Origin: Rhodococcus aetherivorans
GTDB taxonomy: Bacteria > Actinomycetota > Actinomycetes > Mycobacteriales > Mycobacteriaceae
Length of the DNA: 43,349 bases
NCBI RefSeq assembly: GCF_011058165.1
Contig: NZ_JAALEG010000051.1
Coordinates: 1-43,349, forward strand
Direction of reading: 5' to 3'
This document shows positions 2,470 to 34,982 of this stretch, piece after piece. The notes beneath the pieces were generated by a model. The model did not search any database. It was not told the origin of the DNA and worked only from the letters and a program-made list of their open reading frames with translations. The position numbers were made by a program, and so were the translations under genes. The number at the start of each line of letters is the position of its first letter. The stretch's first letter is position 1.

Positions 2470-2778
2470 CACCCGTCGACCTTCCCGATGTTCCGGCCCA
2501 CGGCCCCTGCCGGTGCGCACGATGCCCGACCGTGGCCGCGGCGCCGCCGACCGGGGCGCGCTGTGCCCGTCCAGTATGCCGAGCCCGACAGAACCGGCGG
2601 GCGGGATCGGTCGACCTGGTGGCGGTACACGCCGGCGAGCCGATCATCGAAAGATGCTGCCTGCGATGATCGCCGGGGTGGGTGGCGCTCGGTACTCTCC
2701 GTGCAACCCCCCGCGCCGGTGAGGCCGATCGTTGCCACCGGATCCGGGATGGAATGGCGACGGCTGACCTTGGCAACC

Positions 2779-2802
2779 GTGACGCCCGGCCGGGCGCGTC
2801 AC
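2779..2802 (-). terminator. GC-rich inverted repeat at the end of the reductase operon
   Basis: GTGACG and CGTCAC flank a self-complementary CCCGGCCGGG core, overlapping the stop codon of the reductase gene. There is no clear T-run. The 2470-2798 interval otherwise shows only the presumed promoter region of the GH15 gene and no credible ORF. Confidence 0.45.
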
Positions 2803-4298
2803 AAATCCAGGACCAGAGTGGGGCTGTGGGCGCGGGAGATGCACGGATACATGACCCCGAGCCGATCCTTGCCCGGGGTGTGCGGCACCGCGTCGAGATG
2901 CTCGACCTCGCCGGCCAATACCCGAGTCTCGCACGCCCCGCACACGCCCTCCCGGCACGAGGCCATTACCGGTACACGAGCGTGCTCGAGCGCTTCGAGC
3001 ACGGACTGGCTCTCCGACACGTGCACGTGACGATTGCTGCGGCTGCAGGTGACATCGATCGGCCGACGCGGACCAGGGGACTGTCCCGGTGTCGCGGTGA
3101 ACCGTTCGATGTGCAGGCGTGCGGGCGATACCCGGGCGACGACCTCGTCGGTCATCGCCGCGGGGCCGCAGCAGTACACCGCGCCGGCGGTGGCAGCGGC
3201 GAGGATGGGGGCAAGGTCGAGGCGGCTGCCGGTTTCGTCGTGGGCATGGATACTCACGTTCTGCGGCCATCGCTGCTCGAGTTCCTCGCAGAACGCCATG
3301 GTGGCTCGGCTGCGACCGAGGTAGATCAGCCGCCATCGGCGGTGCGCCGGCAGCGATTCGATCATTGCCTTGATCGGGGTGATCCCGATGCCCCCGGCCA
3401 GGAAGAGATAGTCGTGTGCGGGTTCGAGCGGAAAGTGGTTCTCCGGCGGGCCGACGTACAGGACCGTGCCGGGGCGGGCGCTGGCGTGCAACCAGGAACT
3501 GCCACCCCGGGAGTGCGGCGCCCGGTGCACCGCGATCCGGTATCGGGTGCGGTCGGCGGGGTCGCCGCACAGCGAGTAACGGCGCTGGAGGCCGTGGGGC
3601 AGGTGCACGGTCACATGCGATCCGGGTGTCCACACGGGCAGCTCGCCCCCGTCGCGGGCGGTCAGGTCGATGCCGACGATGCCGGAGGCCAGCAGATGCG
3701 TAGCGCCTACGGTCATCGGCTGTGGTGCCGACCGCGGCCGCCGCGGTGTCCGACGGGACGCGGGGGGCCGACCGCCACCGGTCAGAACACGCGTCAGCAC
3801 GGCCACCATCGTCGAGACCACCAGGATCAACGCGACAAGTCGATATCCCCAGGCGCCGGCGTCGGTGCCGGACCATCCGGCGTGGAACGTCACGAGCACC
3901 ACTGCGGCATAGCTGCCGTAGTGCAGGCGCTTCCACCACCGCGGCGACATGCGTGCCCGGAGCAGCGAGGACCCGTAGACGGCGAGCAGGAGATAGAACG
4001 CCACGACGCCCAGGGCTACCGGCCAGGGCCGGTAGCCGGCGGAGAGCGGGACGAGCACGTCGGTGAGGGAGAACCGGGACCACGAGTCGAGCACGAGTGA
4101 GAACATGTGCAGGCCGGTCATGATCAGGGCGGTGCCACCGAGCCAGCGATGCAGATCCTGCAACCACGCCGGGTTGGCGACCGTCTGCGGGATTCGCGTC
4201 GACAGCAGCACTCCCCACAGCACCGCGACGGTCAGGGTGACCCAGGCGACGAGGGCGCTGGCGCGGGTGACGTACCACCACAGGTGCAGATCGCTCAT
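2799..4298 (-). CDS. Membrane ferric-reductase-like flavoprotein with C-terminal [2Fe-2S] domain
   Basis: This 499-aa protein has an N-terminal ferric-reductase-like membrane domain of about six helices (residues 5-175) with histidines in LHRWLGG, TGLHMF and LHYGSYAAVVLVTFHAGW that could hold haem. An FAD-binding barrel follows (RRYSLCGDP), then an NAD(P) domain (GGIGITPIKAM, YCCGPAAM). The C-terminus is a plant-type ferredoxin with CREGVCGACETRV and a fourth Cys in YPC. It should pass electrons from NAD(P)H through FAD and Fe-S to the membrane domain, or the reverse; the final acceptor is unknown. The ATG overlaps the apbE stop as ATGA (4295-4298), so the two are translationally coupled. Longer in-frame starts would run into apbE and were rejected. 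Confidence 0.85.
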   Translation of the reverse strand: MSDLHLWWYVTRASALVAWVTLTVAVLWGVLLSTRIPQTVANPAWLQDLHRWLGGTALIMTGLHMFSLVLDSWSRFSLTDVLVPLSAGYRPWPVALGVVAFYLLLAVYGSSLLRARMSPRWWKRLHYGSYAAVVLVTFHAGWSGTDAGAWGYRLVALILVVSTMVAVLTRVLTGGGRPPASRRTPRRPRSAPQPMTVGATHLLASGIVGIDLTARDGGELPVWTPGSHVTVHLPHGLQRRYSLCGDPADRTRYRIAVHRAPHSRGGSSWLHASARPGTVLYVGPPENHFPLEPAHDYLFLAGGIGITPIKAMIESLPAHRRWRLIYLGRSRATMAFCEELEQRWPQNVSIHAHDETGSRLDLAPILAAATAGAVYCCGPAAMTDEVVARVSPARLHIERFTATPGQSPGPRRPIDVTCSRSNRHVHVSESQSVLEALEHARVPVMASCREGVCGACETRVLAGEVEHLDAVPHTPGKDRLGVMYPCISRAHSPTLVLDL

Positions 4299-6650: not shown

Positions 6651-8047
6651 GATGGCGGTTGATGGCCGCGTTCATGGCCGTCACCTTCGTCGTGGTGGTA
6701 GTACAGGACGTCCCGCTCGGCAACTACCTGATGCAGGTCGAACGCGAACGCATCACCACCTCCCTCGAGCGGGACGCGTTCTTGCTCGCCGGCCGCAGCG
6801 AGGACACTCTCGAAGCCAGGACCGGAATCGATCCGGCACTGGCCGCCGACACCCGGCGCTATCACCGTGCCAGCGGCGCCCGGGTGGTGATCGTCGACGC
6901 CGACGGCACCGCCGTGCTGACCTCCGACGACGACCAATCCAGCGCCGGCGCCTCCTATCTGTCCCGCCCAGAGATCAGTGCGGCACTGTCGGGACAGATC
7001 ACCTCGGGCCAACGCCGTTCGGACAGTCTCGGCACGGACCTGCTGTACGTGACGGTCCCGGTTCTCAGCGGCGAGAGCGTCGTCGGCGCTGTGCGGCTGA
7101 CCTACCCAGCCCAGGTGGTGACCGACCAGGTCCACCGGCAACTACGCATGCTCTGGCTCGTCGCCGGCATCACCGTGCTCCTGGCCGGAATCGTGGCCGT
7201 CCTCATCGCCGGCCCCGTCACCCGCCGTTTGCAGCAGCTGCGCCGCACCACCGAACAACTCGCCGAAGGCGACCTGGCGGCACGCACCCCCGAGCACGCC
7301 GGGGCGCCGGAGATCCGCAGCCTGGCTCGCTCGTTCAACCGGATGGCCGACCGGCTCGAGTACCTGCTGCGCCAGCAACGCGCGTTCGCCGGCGATGCCT
7401 CCCACCAGTTGCGCACCCCGTTGACCGCCCTGCGCCTGCGCCTCGACAGCGCAGCCGACCTCGTCGAGTCCGAGCCCGATGCTGCCCGCAGCACCCTCGC
7501 CTCGGCCCAGGACGAGGCCCTGCGGCTACAGCACATCATCGATGCACTCCTGGTGCTCAGCCGCGCCGACGACGCCGGCACCGCACCCCAGCAGATCGAC
7601 CTGGCCGAGATCGCGCGCACGCGCGTCGAACAATGGGCACCGCTCGCCGACGAATCCGACGTCCGGCTCACCGTGACAGCACCCACGGCCGCGCCCACGT
7701 TCGCCGTGCCCGGCGCCGCCGAGCAGATCATCGACAACCTCCTCGACAACGCCCTGGCAGTGTCCGACCCCGGCTCCACCATCGAGGTCACCGTCGCCCC
7801 GGTCGCCGCCGCCGATGTCGTCGACTTGCACGTCCTGGACCAGGGCCCCGGCCTGTCCCCGCAGGACTGCCTCCGGGCCTTCGATCGGTTCTGGCGTGCC
7901 CGCACCGACACCGAAGGCAGCGGACTGGGCCTGGCCATCGTCGCGCAACTTGCCCGTGCCAGCGGAGCCACCGCCGAGCTGCTACCTCGCACCCCGAACG
8001 GGGGCCTCGATGCCCATGTCCGGTTTCGTGCGCCCGCGTACCGTTAG
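6647..8047 (+). CDS. Two-component sensor histidine kinase
   Basis: This 466-aa protein, GTG start, has a transmembrane helix at about 6-20, an extracytoplasmic sensor region (about 28-165), a second helix (MLWLVAGITVLLAGIVAVLI, 168-187) and a HAMP linker. A HisKA box follows with H253 in ASHQLRTPLT, and an ATPase domain with N-box NLLDNALAVS, DQGPGLS and GSGLGLAIV. It pairs with the regulator it overlaps. The signal is unknown; the neighbouring redox operon suggests a redox or metal cue. Confidence 0.93.
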   Translation: MRWRLMAAFMAVTFVVVVVQDVPLGNYLMQVERERITTSLERDAFLLAGRSEDTLEARTGIDPALAADTRRYHRASGARVVIVDADGTAVLTSDDDQSSAGASYLSRPEISAALSGQITSGQRRSDSLGTDLLYVTVPVLSGESVVGAVRLTYPAQVVTDQVHRQLRMLWLVAGITVLLAGIVAVLIAGPVTRRLQQLRRTTEQLAEGDLAARTPEHAGAPEIRSLARSFNRMADRLEYLLRQQRAFAGDASHQLRTPLTALRLRLDSAADLVESEPDAARSTLASAQDEALRLQHIIDALLVLSRADDAGTAPQQIDLAEIARTRVEQWAPLADESDVRLTVTAPTAAPTFAVPGAAEQIIDNLLDNALAVSDPGSTIEVTVAPVAAADVVDLHVLDQGPGLSPQDCLRAFDRFWRARTDTEGSGLGLAIVAQLARASGATAELLPRTPNGGLDAHVRFRAPAYR

Positions 8048-11949: not shown

Positions 11950-13554
11950 TCAACCCCGTTTCGTCCGCCGCCCCGCGTCGTGGACGTCCGTGTAGCTGTC
12001 CAGGATCTCGTGGATCTCGGCGATGGCCTTCCGGCGCGAGCCGGCATCCGCGATGCGCGCGAGCTGCTGTTTGAGGCTCACCGCAAGTTCGGCGTAGTCG
12101 TTCTGCCAATCGCGGCCGGTCAGGCGTGGCATATCCGCGCGGGCGGGGTGTATTCGCGTGGCCGGGGTGCCGGGCGCCAACAGGTAGCCTTCCCCCATCG
12201 CCGGGGTGATGATCGACAGCGAAGGGTCGACCTCCCGCACCAGTTCGGCCAGCGCAGCGACTGCCTCCGGTTCGCCGTGCGCGAGGAACAGGCTGCCCGA
12301 CACGGGGCTGCGCGCCTTGATCCAGTCCAGCAGTTCGGTCTGATCGGCATGGGCGGAGTAGCTGTCGATCCGGCGGATCTGCGCTCGCACGTCGATGTCC
12401 TGACCCGAGATGCGGACGCGCTTCGCGCCGTCGAGGATCACGCGGCCCAGCGAGCCCTGCGCCTGGAAACCGACGAACAGGATCGTCGAATCCCGGCGGT
12501 GGAGATTGTGCTTCAGGTGATGACGGATGCGTCCCGCCTCGCACATGCCCGAGGCGGCGATGATGATCGCGCCCGACATGTCGTTGATCCGCTTGGAGAC
12601 GGCAGCGTCGTCGACGTAGTGGATCGCGGGATGGCGGAAGATGTCCTTCCCCTCGAGGTCCTCGAGCTCGCCCGCATGCTCGGCGAACACCGAGGTGGCG
12701 CGGTTGGCGAGCGGTGAGTCGACGAACACCGGCACCGCGGGGATGCGGTTCTCGTCGGCGAGGTGTGCGATGTCGAGCAGCAGCTCCTGCGTCCGTTCCA
12801 GCGCAAAGGCGGGGATGACGAGATTACCGCCGTGCCCGACGGCCCGGTGGATCTCCTCTTCGAGCAGGTCGCGTCGCTGGTCGATCGTCATCCGCACCCG
12901 AGTCCGATTGCCGTAGGTGGATTCGCAGACGACATGGTCCGATCCGGATGGGCCCTCGGGATCGGGGTGGAACGCCTTCTGCGCGGGGCCGAGGTCGCCG
13001 GAAAAGAGCAGGCGCACGCCCCCCGCCTCGATCTCCGCCGATGCGGCACCCAGGATGTGCCCCGCGTTCCACAGTCGCGCACGAAAGCCCGCGGCGGGCT
13101 CGAACCACTCCTCGAGTGCGACCGCACGGGTCTGCCCCCACGCGGCGAGCGCATCCTCCTCGGTGTAGAGCGGGACGAACCGCTTCTCGCGCGTGCGATC
13201 GCGCCGCCGGTTTCGCCGCTCGGCCTCGAATTCCTGGATGCGCCCGGCATCGGCGAGCATGAATTCCAGCAGGTCGGCGCTCTGGCCGGTGCAGAAGATC
13301 GGTCCGTCGAAACCCTGCGCCACCAGCTTGGGCAACAGGCCGCAATGATCGATGTGGGCATGGGTGAGGACCACGGCGTCGATCTCGTGCGGCGCGAACG
13401 CGAAGTCGCCGTGGTTCAGCTCCTCGAGGCTGCGTGAGCCCTGGAACAGGCCACAGTCCACCAGGATCCGTGTGTCGCCGAGGGCGACCTCCATGCACGA
13501 GCCGGTCACCGTCTTCGCGGCACCGTGGAAGACGAGAGTCGGATGTTGCCTCAC
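11950..13554 (-). CDS. Metallo-beta-lactamase / beta-CASP family RNase
   Basis: This 534-aa protein has the MBL zinc motif LTHAHIDHCG near residue 65, further ligands in NAGHILGA and FSGDLG, and the beta-CASP block with IIAASGMCEAGRIRHHL. A C-terminal SYSAHADQTELLDW (RMMBL-like motif) follows. Proteins of this YSH1/CPSF-like architecture act on RNA as endonucleases or exonucleases; the bacterial cellular targets are mostly unknown. It starts at GTG 13554, with AGGAG 7 nt upstream. It stands alone. Confidence 0.88.
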   Translation of the reverse strand: MRQHPTLVFHGAAKTVTGSCMEVALGDTRILVDCGLFQGSRSLEELNHGDFAFAPHEIDAVVLTHAHIDHCGLLPKLVAQGFDGPIFCTGQSADLLEFMLADAGRIQEFEAERRNRRRDRTREKRFVPLYTEEDALAAWGQTRAVALEEWFEPAAGFRARLWNAGHILGAASAEIEAGGVRLLFSGDLGPAQKAFHPDPEGPSGSDHVVCESTYGNRTRVRMTIDQRRDLLEEEIHRAVGHGGNLVIPAFALERTQELLLDIAHLADENRIPAVPVFVDSPLANRATSVFAEHAGELEDLEGKDIFRHPAIHYVDDAAVSKRINDMSGAIIIAASGMCEAGRIRHHLKHNLHRRDSTILFVGFQAQGSLGRVILDGAKRVRISGQDIDVRAQIRRIDSYSAHADQTELLDWIKARSPVSGSLFLAHGEPEAVAALAELVREVDPSLSIITPAMGEGYLLAPGTPATRIHPARADMPRLTGRDWQNDYAELAVSLKQQLARIADAGSRRKAIAEIHEILDSYTDVHDAGRRTKRG

Positions 13555-26810: not shown

Positions 26811-26882
26811 GGGCGTGTAGCTCAGTGGTAGAGCTCTGGTTTTACACACCAGCGGTCGGGGGTTCGAAACCCTCCGCGCCCA
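26811..26882 (+). tRNA. tRNA-Val (UAC), integration target of the element to the right
   Basis: The 72-nt cloverleaf has acceptor GGGCGTG pairing with CGCGCCC (26875-26881) including one G.U pair. The anticodon loop TTTACAC between CTGGT and ACCAG gives anticodon UAC. The T-arm is GGGGG/CCCTC-like around TTCGAAA. An integrase gene begins its end 113 nt downstream, which marks the tRNA 3' end as the likely attachment site. Confidence 0.95.
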
Positions 26883-26886
26883 CAAG

Positions 26887-26995: not shown

Positions 26996-28174
26996 TCATC
27001 TGCTCTTGACCAGGTCTCCGAGCGTCTGCGCAGCCGCCACGAGGGCGTGCGGCTGGTTGTGGACATACCGCGCCATCGTGAACGACGGCGTGGCATGACC
27101 CAGCCAGGCCGACACCGTCGGGACCGGCACGCCGTTGAGGATCATCAGCGTGGCGCAGGTGTGCCGCTCATCGTGGAGATTGATTATCGGCACTCCAGCG
27201 CGCTCACAGGCAGCCTTCCAGCGGTCTGTGAGGTAGTCGGGGTACATCGCCCTGCCTAACGAGTCCACGAAGACGTAGCCGCTGTCTTGGTACTTGTCGC
27301 CAGCTTCCAACTTCTCCCGTTGCTGGACGGCTCGCGCGTGCAGGAGCGACGTGTACACAGGATCGGGGATTGGAAGCACCCGGCCGGAGCGTTCAGTCTT
27401 AGGCTTGCCGATGACGACCTTGCCGTCCGCGATGGTCCGCGTCCGCACGATCCGCATCGTGTGCGCTTCCATGTCGATGTGCTCCCACCCAAGGCCGGCA
27501 AGTTCCTGTTTGCGGAGTCCGAGCGATCCAAGCTGATGCTGATGTCCGTCTCGGTCGTTCGCGGTGATGTCGAGAACCCGCTGCAGCTCCTCGACGGTGA
27601 GGGTCTGGCGCTCTGTGCTGTCGAGCTTCGGCGTATCGACGAAGTGGGCCACGTTCCGGGGGAGATGCCCCTGCTTTACCTCGCTGTCGAGCATCTGCCT
27701 GATCGAGCTGAGGATGTTCCGTCGTGACTGCCCGTTCGAGGGGCGACGCTTCTTGCCATCGGGCCGGGGAATGTCACCGGACTCTAAGCGGGCCATGAGG
27801 GTGTCGATATGCGCCTTCTTCAAGTCCTGGATCGGTAGGTCGCCATAGAGCGCCACCAACGGCTTGAGGCGGTTGCGGTGCCCTGTGAGGGTCGTTTCCT
27901 GCCATCCGGTGCGACCAGCGAGCCACTGTTCGACCGTTTGGGCGACAGTGTCCTTGCGACGGCCGACGTAGGTCCCTGACGCCCGCTGGTCGATGATCTT
28001 GGCAAGTTCGGCCCGTGCTTCGGCCTCGGTCTCGAAGCGCTTGCGGTACTGCTTCCGCTTCCCGTCGACATGCCCTACATCGACTGTTAATTGATAACGA
28101 ATCTCTTGCCGGCCGTTCTTGCGCGTTGAAAGCTCGACTTTCTTGATTTGCGGGGGTAGCTGGATTCTAGGCAT
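26996..28174 (-). CDS. int: Tyrosine recombinase (phage integrase)
   Basis: This 392-aa protein has an N-terminal arm-binding region, a core-binding SAM-like domain (about 70-160, WLAGRTGWQETTLTGHRNRL) and a catalytic domain. The catalytic residues are Arg in LGLRKQELAGLGW, H-x-x-R in LHDERHTCATLM, His in WLGH and the nucleophile in MARYVHN. It would catalyse recombination at the tRNA-Val site next to it, toward which it is transcribed. The ATG at 28174 overlaps the end of the HNH gene by 8 nt. Confidence 0.93.
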   Translation of the reverse strand: MPRIQLPPQIKKVELSTRKNGRQEIRYQLTVDVGHVDGKRKQYRKRFETEAEARAELAKIIDQRASGTYVGRRKDTVAQTVEQWLAGRTGWQETTLTGHRNRLKPLVALYGDLPIQDLKKAHIDTLMARLESGDIPRPDGKKRRPSNGQSRRNILSSIRQMLDSEVKQGHLPRNVAHFVDTPKLDSTERQTLTVEELQRVLDITANDRDGHQHQLGSLGLRKQELAGLGWEHIDMEAHTMRIVRTRTIADGKVVIGKPKTERSGRVLPIPDPVYTSLLHARAVQQREKLEAGDKYQDSGYVFVDSLGRAMYPDYLTDRWKAACERAGVPIINLHDERHTCATLMILNGVPVPTVSAWLGHATPSFTMARYVHNQPHALVAAAQTLGDLVKSR

Positions 28175-29000: not shown

Positions 29001-29120
29001 GTTGTACTACCATTTTACTAAATTCTGTCCTTTACTTGAATACTGGACTATGTAATTAATTAGATACCGCGATAGCCATTCCCGGCAGACGCGACGTTCT
29101 TTTGAAGGGAGGTGGATCAC

Positions 29121-29552: not shown

Positions 29553-30044
29553 TCAGGCCGCAACCACGCGGCAGTGCGTAACGAGCCTCCACCGTGTGGC
29601 GAGGTCCAGCACGGCATGAGCTGCTTCGAAGTACTCCTCGAACTCAAGCCGATTCCCGGCCCAGGAGTCGCCACCGGTTTGAACTTCGGTGCGATACTTC
29701 GCCGTACGGAAGAGCAACTGGAACAGCTCCATCGGCATCGACTGGGTGTCGCCTTCCTCGTCCGGAAGGCCGGTGATGAAGACATCGCCTCGGATGTGGT
29801 CGCGGAAGCGCCAGCGCGGGTCAGATAGCCACAAGAACATCGAGGCCCTTGCGTTGATCGGGAGGCCGAGGTTCTTGCTCTCCTCGTTGGCCCACATGGT
29901 CGCCTGGTAGTCGTTGAGGTCGATGGCTTCCACCAGACCGCTTACCAGGCCCTGCATCGCCGACAGGTCGCCGGCGTAGAACTCCATGTGGCCGACTTCG
30001 GCATCCATGTCTGCGGGGATAACCGCACAGAGAACCTTCTTCAT
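29553..30044 (-). CDS. DUF3846 family phage protein
   Basis: This 163-aa protein (MKKVLCAVIPADMDAEVGHMEF ... NLGLPINARASMFLWL ... GDVFITG) resembles the DUF3846 proteins common in phages, mobile elements and some ArdA-bearing plasmids; function unknown. ATG 30044 is preferred over GTG 30053 because AAGGA lies 11 nt before it. It is the last gene of the early minus-strand operon. Confidence 0.7.
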   Translation of the reverse strand: MKKVLCAVIPADMDAEVGHMEFYAGDLSAMQGLVSGLVEAIDLNDYQATMWANEESKNLGLPINARASMFLWLSDPRWRFRDHIRGDVFITGLPDEEGDTQSMPMELFQLLFRTAKYRTEVQTGGDSWAGNRLEFEEYFEAAHAVLDLATRWRLVTHCRVVAA

Positions 30045-30111
30045 GAGACTCACGTCCTTCTGATCGTGGGTACGACCTGCGTCCGGTTGGGCGCAGGATG
30101 ATGCCCGCGAT

Positions 30112-31418: not shown

Positions 31419-31636
31419 GTCAAACCATCTCCACGCAAGATCCCAGGAGCCGCCGCCTGCATGTACTCGATCGCCTCTTCCCGGGTGATAAGCCGTTCGT
31501 CGGCCGCGCCGAACGCGTCTTCGAAAACTAAGTACAAGGCAAGCTTGGCTACCTCCTGCGAGGTAAACTCACGCGTACTGTCCAGCTCGTTCGTGCAAGG
31601 TTGATTCCGTAGGCTCTCTGGTCCGTTGTAGGACAT
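31415..31636 (-). CDS. Small acidic phage protein, first gene of the early operon
   Basis: This 73-aa protein (SYNGPESLRNQPCTNELDS ... ERLITREEAIEYMQAAAPG) has no recognised family. It has the leader CAACAACTAAACAGGAA before ATG 31636, a sequence shared with other genes of the element. Downstream genes overlap by 4-20 nt down to 30112, so the set is one operon. Confidence 0.7.
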   Translation of the reverse strand: MSYNGPESLRNQPCTNELDSTREFTSQEVAKLALYLVFEDAFGAADERLITREEAIEYMQAAAPGILRGDGLT

Positions 31637-31843
31637 GTGATGAATTCCTGTTTAGTTGTTGATCCGGATTTGCATCCTGAACCTGTCACAATCACTCGTA
31701 CTAGCCCGACTGTCGATTGCGGTACGTGGGATTACGATTCACAAAAAAGGAGACATCAGCTGCGAGCCTGCAGGGCAGGCATGGAAGTCGCAGCACAGTA
31801 CAGAAAAGGAGCGATAGGTGCATGACTGTGAAAGGTTCAGGAT

Positions 31844-32487
31844 GGGCGACCGGCGCGGTCGCCCTGACAGCGCAGACGATCCAAAAAAACGGAACCGCGC
31901 AGGTCCCATCGTCTGCCCAGTACCGCTCAGGTAAGGGTGGGCATCACCTGAGCGGTACTAGTCCGCCGGATTTCGATGCGCCGGCGGAGAACTGTAGAAC
32001 AGGCAGTGCCAGCTGTCAGCGACTGGAACTGCCGGGAATGAGGTGCGAAGCGCACGAACGGCTGTTAACTGCTATCGATGTTCATGCGCCCAATTCCAGT
32101 CAGGTAAGGGTGGCATCACCTGACCAGAATTGGTCTTCGACGCCGCTCGCAGGTCGGCGTCGAAGACTCATGCTTTCAACTATGTAGCACACCAGTAAGC
32201 ACGTTAAGCTTGCTAGCTGCGCTCTCGGTGCTTTGATTCATGACTCAGGCGGTATTCTTCGTGTTGCAGGGTCAGTGGTTCCGCTCCGCCATCTGGGAGT
32301 GACTGTTTTCCGATTTCCGTACCTAGGGATGCCTCCCGTCTCGGTTCGACCTGCTCACCAGCGTGCTACATAATATCTTGCTTGTAAAGGTTCTAGTGGG
32401 ACTGCCCGCTTGCCACCGAGGTTCGCTCAGTACGGACAGCGCCGCTGCTAGTCACTAGGGCTATTCTGCGACGAAGGGCAACCGGTA
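31844..32487 (-). ncRNA. Large structured non-coding RNA of the element (novel candidate)
   Basis: No credible gene lies here, but stems follow one another. A 23-bp helix pairs 32179-32201 with 32352-32374, closing an inner domain of about 150 nt. Further hairpins are 32133-32167 (13 bp), 32090-32133 (16 bp), 32043-32055, 32002-32033, 31962-31988, 31917-31961 (16 bp), 31872-31916 and 31844-31864. In the 23-bp helix six plus-strand A.C mismatches are all G.U wobbles on the minus strand; the same holds for two positions in the 32090 hairpin and one in 31891-31907. So the minus strand is the RNA. It starts just after a 39-codon gene and may end at a T7 run (31883-31889) or further on. Size and placement recall the large ornate phage RNAs (GOLLD, ROOL); homology is not claimed. 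Confidence 0.7.
31883..31907 (-). terminator. Terminator-like hairpin with T7 run inside the RNA region
   Basis: On the minus strand GGGACC and GGTTCC pair around TGCGC (one G.U), followed by one G and T7. An outer 9-bp stem (31872-31880 with 31908-31916) spans the T-run, so it could be an internal loop instead of a stop. Confidence 0.5.
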
Positions 32488-32607
32488 TTACTCCCTGTAC
32501 TCGCGGTCCATCTCGTCTGGGATGACCTTCGTCATCAGCAGGAGAGAAATGAGAGGGGTTGCGACGAGAATGGACGCAATGGTCAGGTAGAAGGTGATGT
32601 TATCCAT
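32488..32607 (-). CDS. 39-aa membrane peptide
   Basis: It reads MDNITFYLTIASILVATPLI followed by SLLLMTKVIPDEMDREYRE: one membrane helix and a short charged tail. AAGGAGG is about 15 nt upstream, and its start overlaps the end of the 54-aa gene by 8 nt. It lies directly before the structured RNA. Confidence 0.6.
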   Translation of the reverse strand: MDNITFYLTIASILVATPLISLLLMTKVIPDEMDREYRE

Positions 32608-32764
32608 GAGACCGTAAGTCCCCCTCCTTGGCTTTGCGAGCGGCCCGCGCCCGGCGCTTGGTCTTGTACTGACCGATCAGCTTCAGGAAGCCAATGTCGT
32701 CGCCGCGCTCGTACTCTAGTTTAAATTGGGAAAGTTCGCTCTGCTCTTGTTGATTTGTTCTCAT
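32600..32764 (-). CDS. 54-aa basic phage peptide
   Basis: It reads MRTNQQEQSELSQFKLEYER, then GDDIGFLKLIGQYKTKRRAR and a Lys/Arg-rich tail: a helical peptide that may bind nucleic acid. AAGGAG is present but about 16 nt before the ATG, so the start is uncertain. It is the first gene after the promoter at 32806-32833 and overlaps the next by 8 nt. Confidence 0.5.
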   Translation of the reverse strand: MRTNQQEQSELSQFKLEYERGDDIGFLKLIGQYKTKRRARAARKAKEGDLRSHG

Positions 32765-32805
32765 TGCTTTCTGTTGGCCACTCCTTTTCGCTTTGTTCTG
32801 TTATT

Positions 32806-32833
32806 AGTATGACAAAAACGGAATGATTTGCAA
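32806..32833 (-). promoter_or_regulatory. Early promoter of the peptide/RNA unit
   Basis: On the minus strand, TTGCAA (32833-32828), a 16-bp spacer and CATACT (32811-32806) fit a vegetative promoter. The block GGTATTGCAA ... GTCATACTAAT recurs at 38595-38627 in front of the erf operon. Confidence 0.65.
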
Positions 32834-32847
32834 TACCTTTTTCTGCT

Positions 32848-32871
32848 GGTTTTATCCACATGTGGAAAACC
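32848..32871. promoter_or_regulatory. 24-nt inverted repeat with a TTATCCACA box, upstream of the early promoter
   Basis: TTATCCACA (32852-32860) and TGTGGAAAA (32861-32869) lie back to back inside GGTTTTATCCACA/TGTGGAAAACC. The first is the DnaA-box consensus of E. coli; the second recurs at the same distance from the 38.6-kb promoter. A second short repeat, CGACATGTGTCG, lies at 32878-32889. Confidence 0.55.
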
Positions 32872-32902
32872 AAGTCCGACATGTGTCGAACATGGTTTGC
32901 CA

Positions 32903-34439: not shown

Positions 34440-34982
34440 TTATCGTTTCAGTCCGAAGTCCTTTTTCTTTATCTTCACCATGTCACCGTTAGGTCGGTGC
34501 CAGACGACACCTTCGATGTCCTTGTCAGCAAACCACGCCTTCAGCTCGTCAAATGCTCGGGGCGCATCGAGTACTTGGGTGCCGTGGCGGACGAGTTCGT
34601 GCTCCTCAAACTGCTCCGGATTGCCCTGTACTTTCGGACCCACCAGTTCATACGTCCCGTCTGGCAAATCTCCACAGTTGTCGATGGCTTCGCGAAACCA
34701 CTTGTCTTCCGGGCCATCTCCGACTGTCAACCAACCCGGCCAGTGTCCCGTAACGGGGTCTGGGTCTTGTGCGGCGATGAAACCGGCTGGAGGAGTCTTG
34801 CCCTGCTTAGAATCGAAACGCTTGTAGAGCGTGCCGCTCTCGATCTTGGCGCAGGTTCCGTCCCACTTTCGAGTGGCAATGCCCTCGCCTTGGAGCACCC
34901 ATTCTGCTCCAGGTACAACCTCGTCGTACACAAGGTGGGTACCTTCATAGTCGCGTTTGAATAGACTGATTATCTTCTTCAT
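34440..34982 (-). CDS. Minimal RNA ligase / nucleotidyltransferase (DUF5565-like)
   Basis: This 180-aa protein has motif I KWDGT with K39 as the expected site of nucleotidylation. Motif IV is EGVVWHRP and motif V is MVKIKKKDF. This is the bare nucleotidyltransferase domain, without the extra domains of larger RNA or DNA ligases, and resembles the family called DUF5565. It should seal RNA ends or nicks using a nucleotide cofactor. ATG 34982 follows AAGGAGAACAACTGGAC, part of the shared leader. It is followed on the same strand by whiB. Confidence 0.8.
   Translation of the reverse strand: MKKIISLFKRDYEGTHLVYDEVVPGAEWVLQGEGIATRKWDGTCAKIESGTLYKRFDSKQGKTPPAGFIAAQDPDPVTGHWPGWLTVGDGPEDKWFREAIDNCGDLPDGTYELVGPKVQGNPEQFEEHELVRHGTQVLDAPRAFDELKAWFADKDIEGVVWHRPNGDMVKIKKKDFGLKR

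Follow-up and report, generated by a model that had tools for sequence, protein, structure and literature searches.

A probable structured prophage RNA in Rhodococcus aetherivorans carries two copies of a hairpin that recurs in viral contigs and in a Saccharibacteria RNA-like region

Introduction

The 43,349-nt stretch of Rhodococcus aetherivorans DNA analyzed here (contig NZ_JAALEG010000051.1; hereafter the window) contains a dense run of stems with no recognizable gene. Is this region an RNA, from which strand would it be read, and does it belong to a known class? The original prediction, made from the sequence alone, took it for a large minus-strand RNA of the GOLLD or ROOL kind, possibly a new class in actinophages. 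We address these questions through the setting and folding of the region, the distribution of one hairpin that it carries twice, and a comparison with known RNAs.

The prophage and its structured region

The left 26.8 kb of the window is host chromosome (~70% GC), and a foreign element of ~55-60% GC begins at the tRNA-Val and integrase genes and extends to the contig end (Table 1). The genes of the element include those for HNH endonucleases, a WhiB-like regulator, an Erf-like annealing protein, and an RNA ligase; the ligase gene (phrog_14301, 34440-34982) shares ~60% identity with the ligase of the Mycobacterium phage Collard. The genes surrounding the stem-rich region lie on the minus strand, and the predicted RNA runs in the same direction. 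None of three open frames tested over the region, including a 156-aa plus-strand ORF at 31717-32187, had a PHROG match.

Table 1. Features of the prophage and of the predicted RNA, in window coordinates.
Feature	Position	Strand	Remarks
tRNA-Val	26811-26883		beside integrase, left end of element
Integrase gene	26996..28174	minus	adjoins tRNA-Val; left end of element
phrog_3777 gene	29553..30053	minus	kin in L038, L057 contig, L161, L252, L253, L256
Structured noncoding region, probable RNA gene	31740..32487	minus	fold z, G·U asymmetry, no PHROG match, L038 synteny
9-bp hairpin GGGCGACCG/CGGUCGCCC	31844..31864	minus	
Intrinsic-terminator-like hairpin with U7	31883..31910	minus	directly after canonical B hairpin
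B hairpin, canonical loop GAUGCCCACCCUU	31917..31961	minus	model R1, 52 bits
B hairpin, second copy, loop GAUGCCACCCUU, one C shorter	32091..32132	minus	model R1, 39.2 bits
13-bp hairpin, all Watson-Crick	32133..32167	minus	
Domain closed by 23-bp helix	32179..32374	minus	32374-32352 with 32201-32179; 23 continuous pairs, five G·U
Hairpin GCUGUCCGU/GCGGGCAGU	32401..32440	minus	in the folds, including the centroid
Small membrane-peptide-like ORF, 39 aa, ..PDEMD..	32488..32607	minus	stops where RNA region starts
Small basic ORF, 54 aa	32600..32764	minus	upstream of RNA region

Folding bore out the proposed minus-strand structure, with a minimum free energy of -311.4 kcal/mol over 751 nt and a z-score of -7.95 against 20 dinucleotide shuffles; the plus strand gave a z-score of -3.53 (20 shuffles), and the shorter stretch 31881-32487 gave -6.1 on the minus and -2.2 on the plus strand. 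For comparison, ten control stretches (600 nt, 10 shuffles each) taken from the element had z-scores from -2.1 to 3.0 in nine cases and of -5.2 in the tenth, at 29100. Given that both strands fold better than their shuffles, the stems could in principle be inverted repeats that act at the DNA level, for example as replication or packaging signals, and have no function as RNA. We consider this highly improbable, as the asymmetry of wobble pairs described next and the promoter and terminator framing of related viral hairpins (see below) favor RNA.

The strand had originally been argued from mismatches that become G·U pairs only when the minus strand is read, and this argument held with some corrections to its counts. 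The long closing helix is unbroken on the minus strand as claimed, where all of its mismatches resolve as G·U pairs, and shows five A·C mismatches on the plus strand rather than six. The same asymmetry is present in the 32091-32132 hairpin, with three G·U pairs (two in the stem and one at the loop end) in place of the two reported, and in the 31917-31961 hairpin, with two in place of one; the single G·U pair of the 31891-31907 hairpin, an A·C mismatch on the plus strand, was as described. In a strand-neutral helix search, which permitted both G·U and A·C and selected non-overlapping helices greedily, nine helices held 13 G·U versus 2 A·C on the minus strand (two-sided p 0.0074), whereas 19 control windows of 750 nt within this element totaled 83 and 120, respectively. 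We regard the asymmetry as real, while some of the helices chosen may be chance ones; minimum free energy folds hold similar numbers of G·U pairs on the two strands (24 on the minus and 25 on the plus).

The predicted transcript might run from 32487 to ~31883, or on to 31740; terminator-like sites number four in 1.4 kb of the window, versus 1.6 expected. A weak promoter-like site (CTGACA-17-TACAGT, 32019-31991, minus strand) lies upstream of the canonical B hairpin and, with the terminator at 31883, would bracket an RNA of ~100 nt, these sites being near chance (two versus 0.8 expected).

A recurrent hairpin with a constant loop

Two of the hairpins, which we term B, have a nearly identical loop, GAUGCC(C)ACCCUU, with the core UGCCCACCC; the second copy is one C shorter. 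The corresponding minus-strand pattern, GGTGATGCC(C)ACCCTTACC, occurs twice in the window and in none of 100 shuffles. Exact matches were found in 29 viral contigs and in at least 115 stretches of genome contigs, and among the genome-contig matches listed, 93 were from Saccharibacteria, Saccharimonadia, or TM7 and 13 from other groups, with only three of these 13 (L063, L080, and L161) having a stem of at least five pairs. Relaxing one flanking pair gave 51 matching viral stretches. Such a stem was present in 139 of the 169 pattern matches examined; many of the remaining 30 lie within long open frames, as expected of chance matches.

The stem was analyzed in an alignment (A2) of 48 of 86 distinct hairpins, excluding those with fewer than four stem pairs, some redundant loci, and L061, which sits in a long open frame. 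The ten-pair stem was 96.3% paired, with 154 double-change cells versus 40.4 in shuffles and a covariation of 0.85 versus 0.18, and shifting the partner by one base lowered the pairing to 31-46%. Since these hairpins were fetched by an exact match to the loop, its invariance in the alignment is by construction, and its conservation was therefore tested separately. Among 90 genomes from the class to which a Saccharibacteria genome belongs, a covariance model matched 42 at E <= 0.01, once in each; 39 of these, again one per genome, were at E <= 1.5e-4, and the weakest three (E 0.006-0.009) may be due to chance. The exact loop was present in 34 of the 42 genomes. We read five of the eight loci that lacked the exact loop match: three keep the loop itself and have a C-G pair in place of the closing U-A, a fourth carries an additional U, and a fifth has altered loop flanks, the core UGCCCACCC being retained in all five. 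The C-G closing version also occurs in nine viral stretches, seven of them on an unbroken stem of at least five pairs.

The B hairpin family exists, and we state this with high confidence; the window's hairpins combine its covarying stem with the same loop core as the Saccharibacteria B RNA described below, less one C in the second copy. Among relatives of the host the hairpin is rare: it was found in 2 of 401 family genomes, 1 of 396 phylum genomes, and 1 of 298 order genomes, and each count includes the window's own genome.

A constant loop might form an intramolecular pseudoknot by pairing with a G-rich sequence in the same RNA. Candidate partners do occur, such as GGUGGCA (32411-32417, minus strand) for the UGCCACC of the shortened window loop (p 0.08) and GUGGGCA for UGCCCAC in the locus L048 (p 0.07), but the best upstream complement reached p <= 0.05 against shuffled flanks in only 4 of 38 hairpins, and the loop is unchanged across unrelated contexts. 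We therefore hold a pseudoknot to be very unlikely.

Relatives in actinobacterial genomes and phages

B hairpins of the actinobacterial type occur, besides the window, in Antrihabitans sp. YC2-6 (L080; same family as the host), in Arthrobacter terricola (L161), and in the viral contigs L038 and L057, which are linked to the window's phage through gene kinship. A phrog_3777-type gene is common to the window, L038, the L057 contig, and L161. L038 also carries, just upstream of its RNA region and in the same place, a homologue of the 39-aa peptide (alignment score 67 versus a best of 37 in 500 shuffles), a small ORF without alignable sequence at the place of the 54-aa ORF, and a protein of 114-120 aa homologous to one in the window (38%). 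Its 721-nt region folds with a z-score of -7.56 (other strand, -5.77) and bears a B hairpin on an 18-bp stem, again in the same place. Fold statistics, G·U asymmetry, the covariation of B, and this second, similar phage contig together support the predicted large, structured minus-strand RNA of an actinobacterial prophage. The minus strand of ~31740-32487 is thus very probably a structured prophage RNA, and our confidence in a large RNA here, as judged from its sequence, is fairly high.

Beyond hairpin B, the window RNA has almost nothing in common with these sequences, and only their position suggests that the RNA bodies are homologous. No common 8-mer or longer word was above chance between the window RNA and L038, L057, L080, or L161, and a 7-mer, ACAGTTC, in four of the five actinobacterial-type sequences was slightly above it (1 versus 0.06 expected). 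The whole window RNA had no blastn match among phages and plasmids, and in the 401 family genomes it gave one match each in 38 others, of 21-46 bases only. No G·U asymmetry was seen in L038 (7 versus 7) or L057 (10 versus 8). As the window RNA shares only the hairpin and, with L038, the gene position, its body is the sole example of its kind and has no covariation to support it. The suggested new actinophage class accordingly stands as far as the hairpin recurs in L080, L161, L038, and L057, while the body has one representative, and our confidence in a common class of large RNAs is moderate to low.

Several smaller observations concern these relatives. L038 (~11977-12042) and L057 (10588-10651) have in common a 66-base segment, 86% identical, with a hairpin around CUUUUCGAAAGG; their RNA regions are otherwise unlike, the segment lies at differing distances from the B hairpin, and it was in no other viral contig as searched. 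L252 and L253 are viral contigs related to the window's phage and 86-98% identical to each other over five long stretches; both (2740-3068 and ~2200-2520, respectively) have a structured noncoding stretch with a 14-bp hairpin and no B hairpin, upstream of a clamp-like gene (named by eye). No B hairpin was found in the fetched parts of L252, L253, and L256, which have phrog_3777 relatives, and a scan with the L161 protein gave no matches. A GGYAAGCGG motif and a CU-GCG-AG triloop noted by eye were dropped, as 8- and 9-mers shared across the five sequences were at chance level.

A Saccharibacteria chromosomal RNA ending in the same hairpin

Saccharibacteria are tiny bacteria that live on actinobacteria. 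Their B hairpins mark the 3' end of a conserved RNA-like stretch of ~300 nt between genes, and a TTGACA/TATAAT-type promoter sequence lies upstream of this stretch; an example is L073 (~7100-7440), and relatives occur in most of L062-L175, L210-L239, and L293-L297. A T-run follows the hairpin in 83 of 100 members of the Saccharibacteria set. In an alignment of 19 sequences, 42 pairs were predicted, of which 22 show changes at both positions (the alignment that was scored is also the one from which the structure was derived). In the contig L142, two B hairpins stand in tandem. A -10-like hexamer was close upstream of 21 of 97 Saccharibacteria hairpins, seemingly from A/T-rich flanks (e.g., TAAAAT).

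Upstream of the hairpin lie conserved C-rich elements; in one group, the 5' core consists of ACCUUAUACCCCCUAUU, a CUAAC/GUUAG hairpin, and then UACCCUCCAC. This core occurs by itself, with a T-run after it, in the viral contigs L240, L241, L242, and L251 (the last with a variant first element) and likewise in Antrihabitans (L080, minus strand), where it lies ~590 nt upstream of the B hairpin, apparently separate from it; such stretches have the look of small viral RNAs. Searches with two 5'-core patterns returned 12 loci, of which only those in the four viral contigs are core-like, the other eight looking like chance matches.

No Rfam 15 family matched this RNA, a permissive search giving only matches far below the gathering scores, and neither an RNA of this kind in Saccharibacteria nor the B hairpin appeared among the literature matches listed, so the RNA is apparently undescribed. 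RNase P was rejected as its identity, as all six genomes tested have RNase P elsewhere, as were tRNA and tmRNA, for which ARAGORN found none in five loci. The Saccharibacteria and window RNAs have the same B hairpin loop; unlike the window RNA, that of Saccharibacteria is ~300 nt long and has a promoter sequence just upstream, usually a T-run, and the extra C-rich elements. At up to three mismatches, neither ACCUUAUACCCCCUAUU nor AGUANYUACCCUCCACU (5' elements from one of two groups) was found in the whole window, and the longest T-run after either window B hairpin is 1, a separate terminator-like hairpin being present at 31910-31883.

Tiny viral units

Many viral B hairpins appear in what look like minimal transcription units. 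For 36 distinct viral hairpins (L038 and L057 excluded), a -10-like hexamer lies within 24 nt upstream in 20, a T-run follows directly in 10, a terminator follows within 140 nt in 13, and the promoter element is combined with a T-run or terminator in 14. Random ORF-free positions in the same 58 contig pieces, a background that counts the hairpin's own T-run, had the promoter element in 14.8% and the combination in 2.8% of cases (p 2e-8 and 4e-13, respectively, both overstating the significance because some contigs are related to one another). A separate count found T-runs after 8 of 29 viral hairpins. For the six B hairpins in the window, L038, L057, L080, and L161, no -10-like hexamer immediately precedes the hairpin and no T-run follows, and in this the actinobacterial type differs from the tiny viral units. 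L034 and L049 have in common a 79-base stretch, 84% identical and tRNA-gene-like by eye, that ends in CCA and follows the B hairpin in one of them but precedes it in the other.

This framing bears on whether the hairpins act in cis, either by antitermination (modifying RNA polymerase) or by protecting, processing, or ending a messenger, with the window region being part of an operon transcript. The frequent position of viral B hairpins soon after a -10-like hexamer recalls HK022 put-type elements, the T-runs after many viral and Saccharibacteria hairpins would suit a role at transcript ends, and 24-62 nt past the hairpin an open frame with a ribosome-site-like motif begins in L043, L048, L057, and L080. 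However, where the promoter element is soon followed by a T-run or terminator, there would be no gene to regulate unless termination were bypassed, and the window hairpins sit hundreds of bases within a structured region. We judge a cis role unlikely on balance, though it is the strongest competitor of the explanation given next.

A possible decoy for a trans-acting partner

The explanation that we consider best, and favor only tentatively, is that the phage noncoding RNA docks a putative trans-acting partner through its B loops and serves as a decoy or sponge. The RNA would be made from the minus strand, probably co-transcribed with the small upstream genes, and would display two B hairpins whose conserved loop core forms the docking site. 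The partner would most likely be a sequence-specific RNA-binding protein, for which phage versions of the hairpin would most likely compete. A partner in trans is the simplest reading because no common cis partner was found and no complementarity to rRNA was clearly above shuffles: the canonical B loop gave p 0.20-0.60 against rRNA in the host's own genome and in Antrihabitans, and for the shortened window loop one locus was at p 0.03 and three were at 0.10-0.70; the two Saccharibacteria genomes tested yielded no rRNA. A protein recognition site is suggested by a constant loop on a free stem, found at 5' ends, at 3' ends, and inside large RNAs. Sequestration is suggested by the two copies in one large RNA and the single copies in tiny phage units, and competition by the same loop ending the Saccharibacteria RNA and recurring in those units. 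We thus put forward the partner, its nature, and the decoy role as a working hypothesis.

A broader form of this explanation, which seems to us possible but somewhat unlikely, is that actinobacterial and Saccharibacteria phages share a hairpin copying part of the Saccharibacteria RNA, as a decoy in a contest for one conserved RNA-binding factor that spans host and epibiont. Some viral contigs would then carry the 3' B hairpin as a minimal RNA and others, likewise, the 5' C-rich core, with B hairpins embedded in larger RNAs in actinobacterial prophages. CRISPR spacers predict that Actinobacteria, too, target some Saccharibacteria phages (PMC10746230), which makes a shared partner or phage gene pool plausible; our finding would add an RNA element to that predicted contact.

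Large phage RNAs are known, while their roles are not, and a short hairpin, strongly conserved and easily made, could be used directly as bait for a partner. A partner found via the B hairpin would offer a handle on the function of such large RNAs. The search also brought to light a chromosomal Saccharibacteria RNA absent from Rfam 15.

Comparison with known RNA classes

The original assignment to GOLLD or ROOL was not supported. At gathering scores, Rfam 15 found only tRNAs in the whole window, and a permissive search of 31500-32900 gave only matches far below those scores; neither the GOLLD nor the ROOL covariance model matched, at gathering score over the whole window or at E up to 5 in 31500-32900. 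Nor does a tRNA island lie near the RNA in the part of the element that precedes the contig end: of two tRNAs in the window (positions 352 and 26811), the nearer, tRNA-Val beside the integrase, is 4.9 kb away.

According to PMC12286853, GOLLD is a large RNA with extensive structure that occurs in phages and prophages, and ROOL is a large structured phage or prophage RNA without assigned function; a title in the reference list of the same paper places GOLLD in Mycobacterium tRNA arrays. On this description, the window RNA resembles GOLLD in size, structure, and phage or prophage origin, and ROOL as a large structured RNA of such origin. It differs from both in having no match to their models, and from GOLLD also in lying outside a tRNA island and in having B hairpins. 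It might nevertheless be an ornate RNA of this general kind, with an RNA-only assembly or cage in which the hairpins make intermolecular contacts. Its 600-750 nt, its many long helices, and its prophage location would fit, GOLLD and ROOL being phage and prophage RNAs of similar size (PMC12286853), but the lack of an Rfam match and of a tRNA island speaks against it, and no part of the B loop is obviously self-complementary, which would make kissing between its own copies unlikely. On this evidence such an assembly appears quite unlikely.

HK022 put-type antitermination elements are phage hairpins just after a promoter. Many viral B loci are like them in position, whereas the window B hairpins have no promoter close upstream; a position directly downstream of a promoter was found for none of the six actinobacterial-type hairpins, both window copies included.

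CsrB and RsmZ are sponge RNAs whose repeated hairpin loops titrate an RNA-binding protein, and the role proposed here would be analogous, with repeated loops titrating such a protein. Unlike theirs, the B loop has no GGA, and only two copies are present, within a large structured RNA. On the evidence of its sequence, the window probably encodes an unusual phage RNA, distinct from GOLLD and ROOL by model and tied through one conserved hairpin to a family outside Rfam 15.
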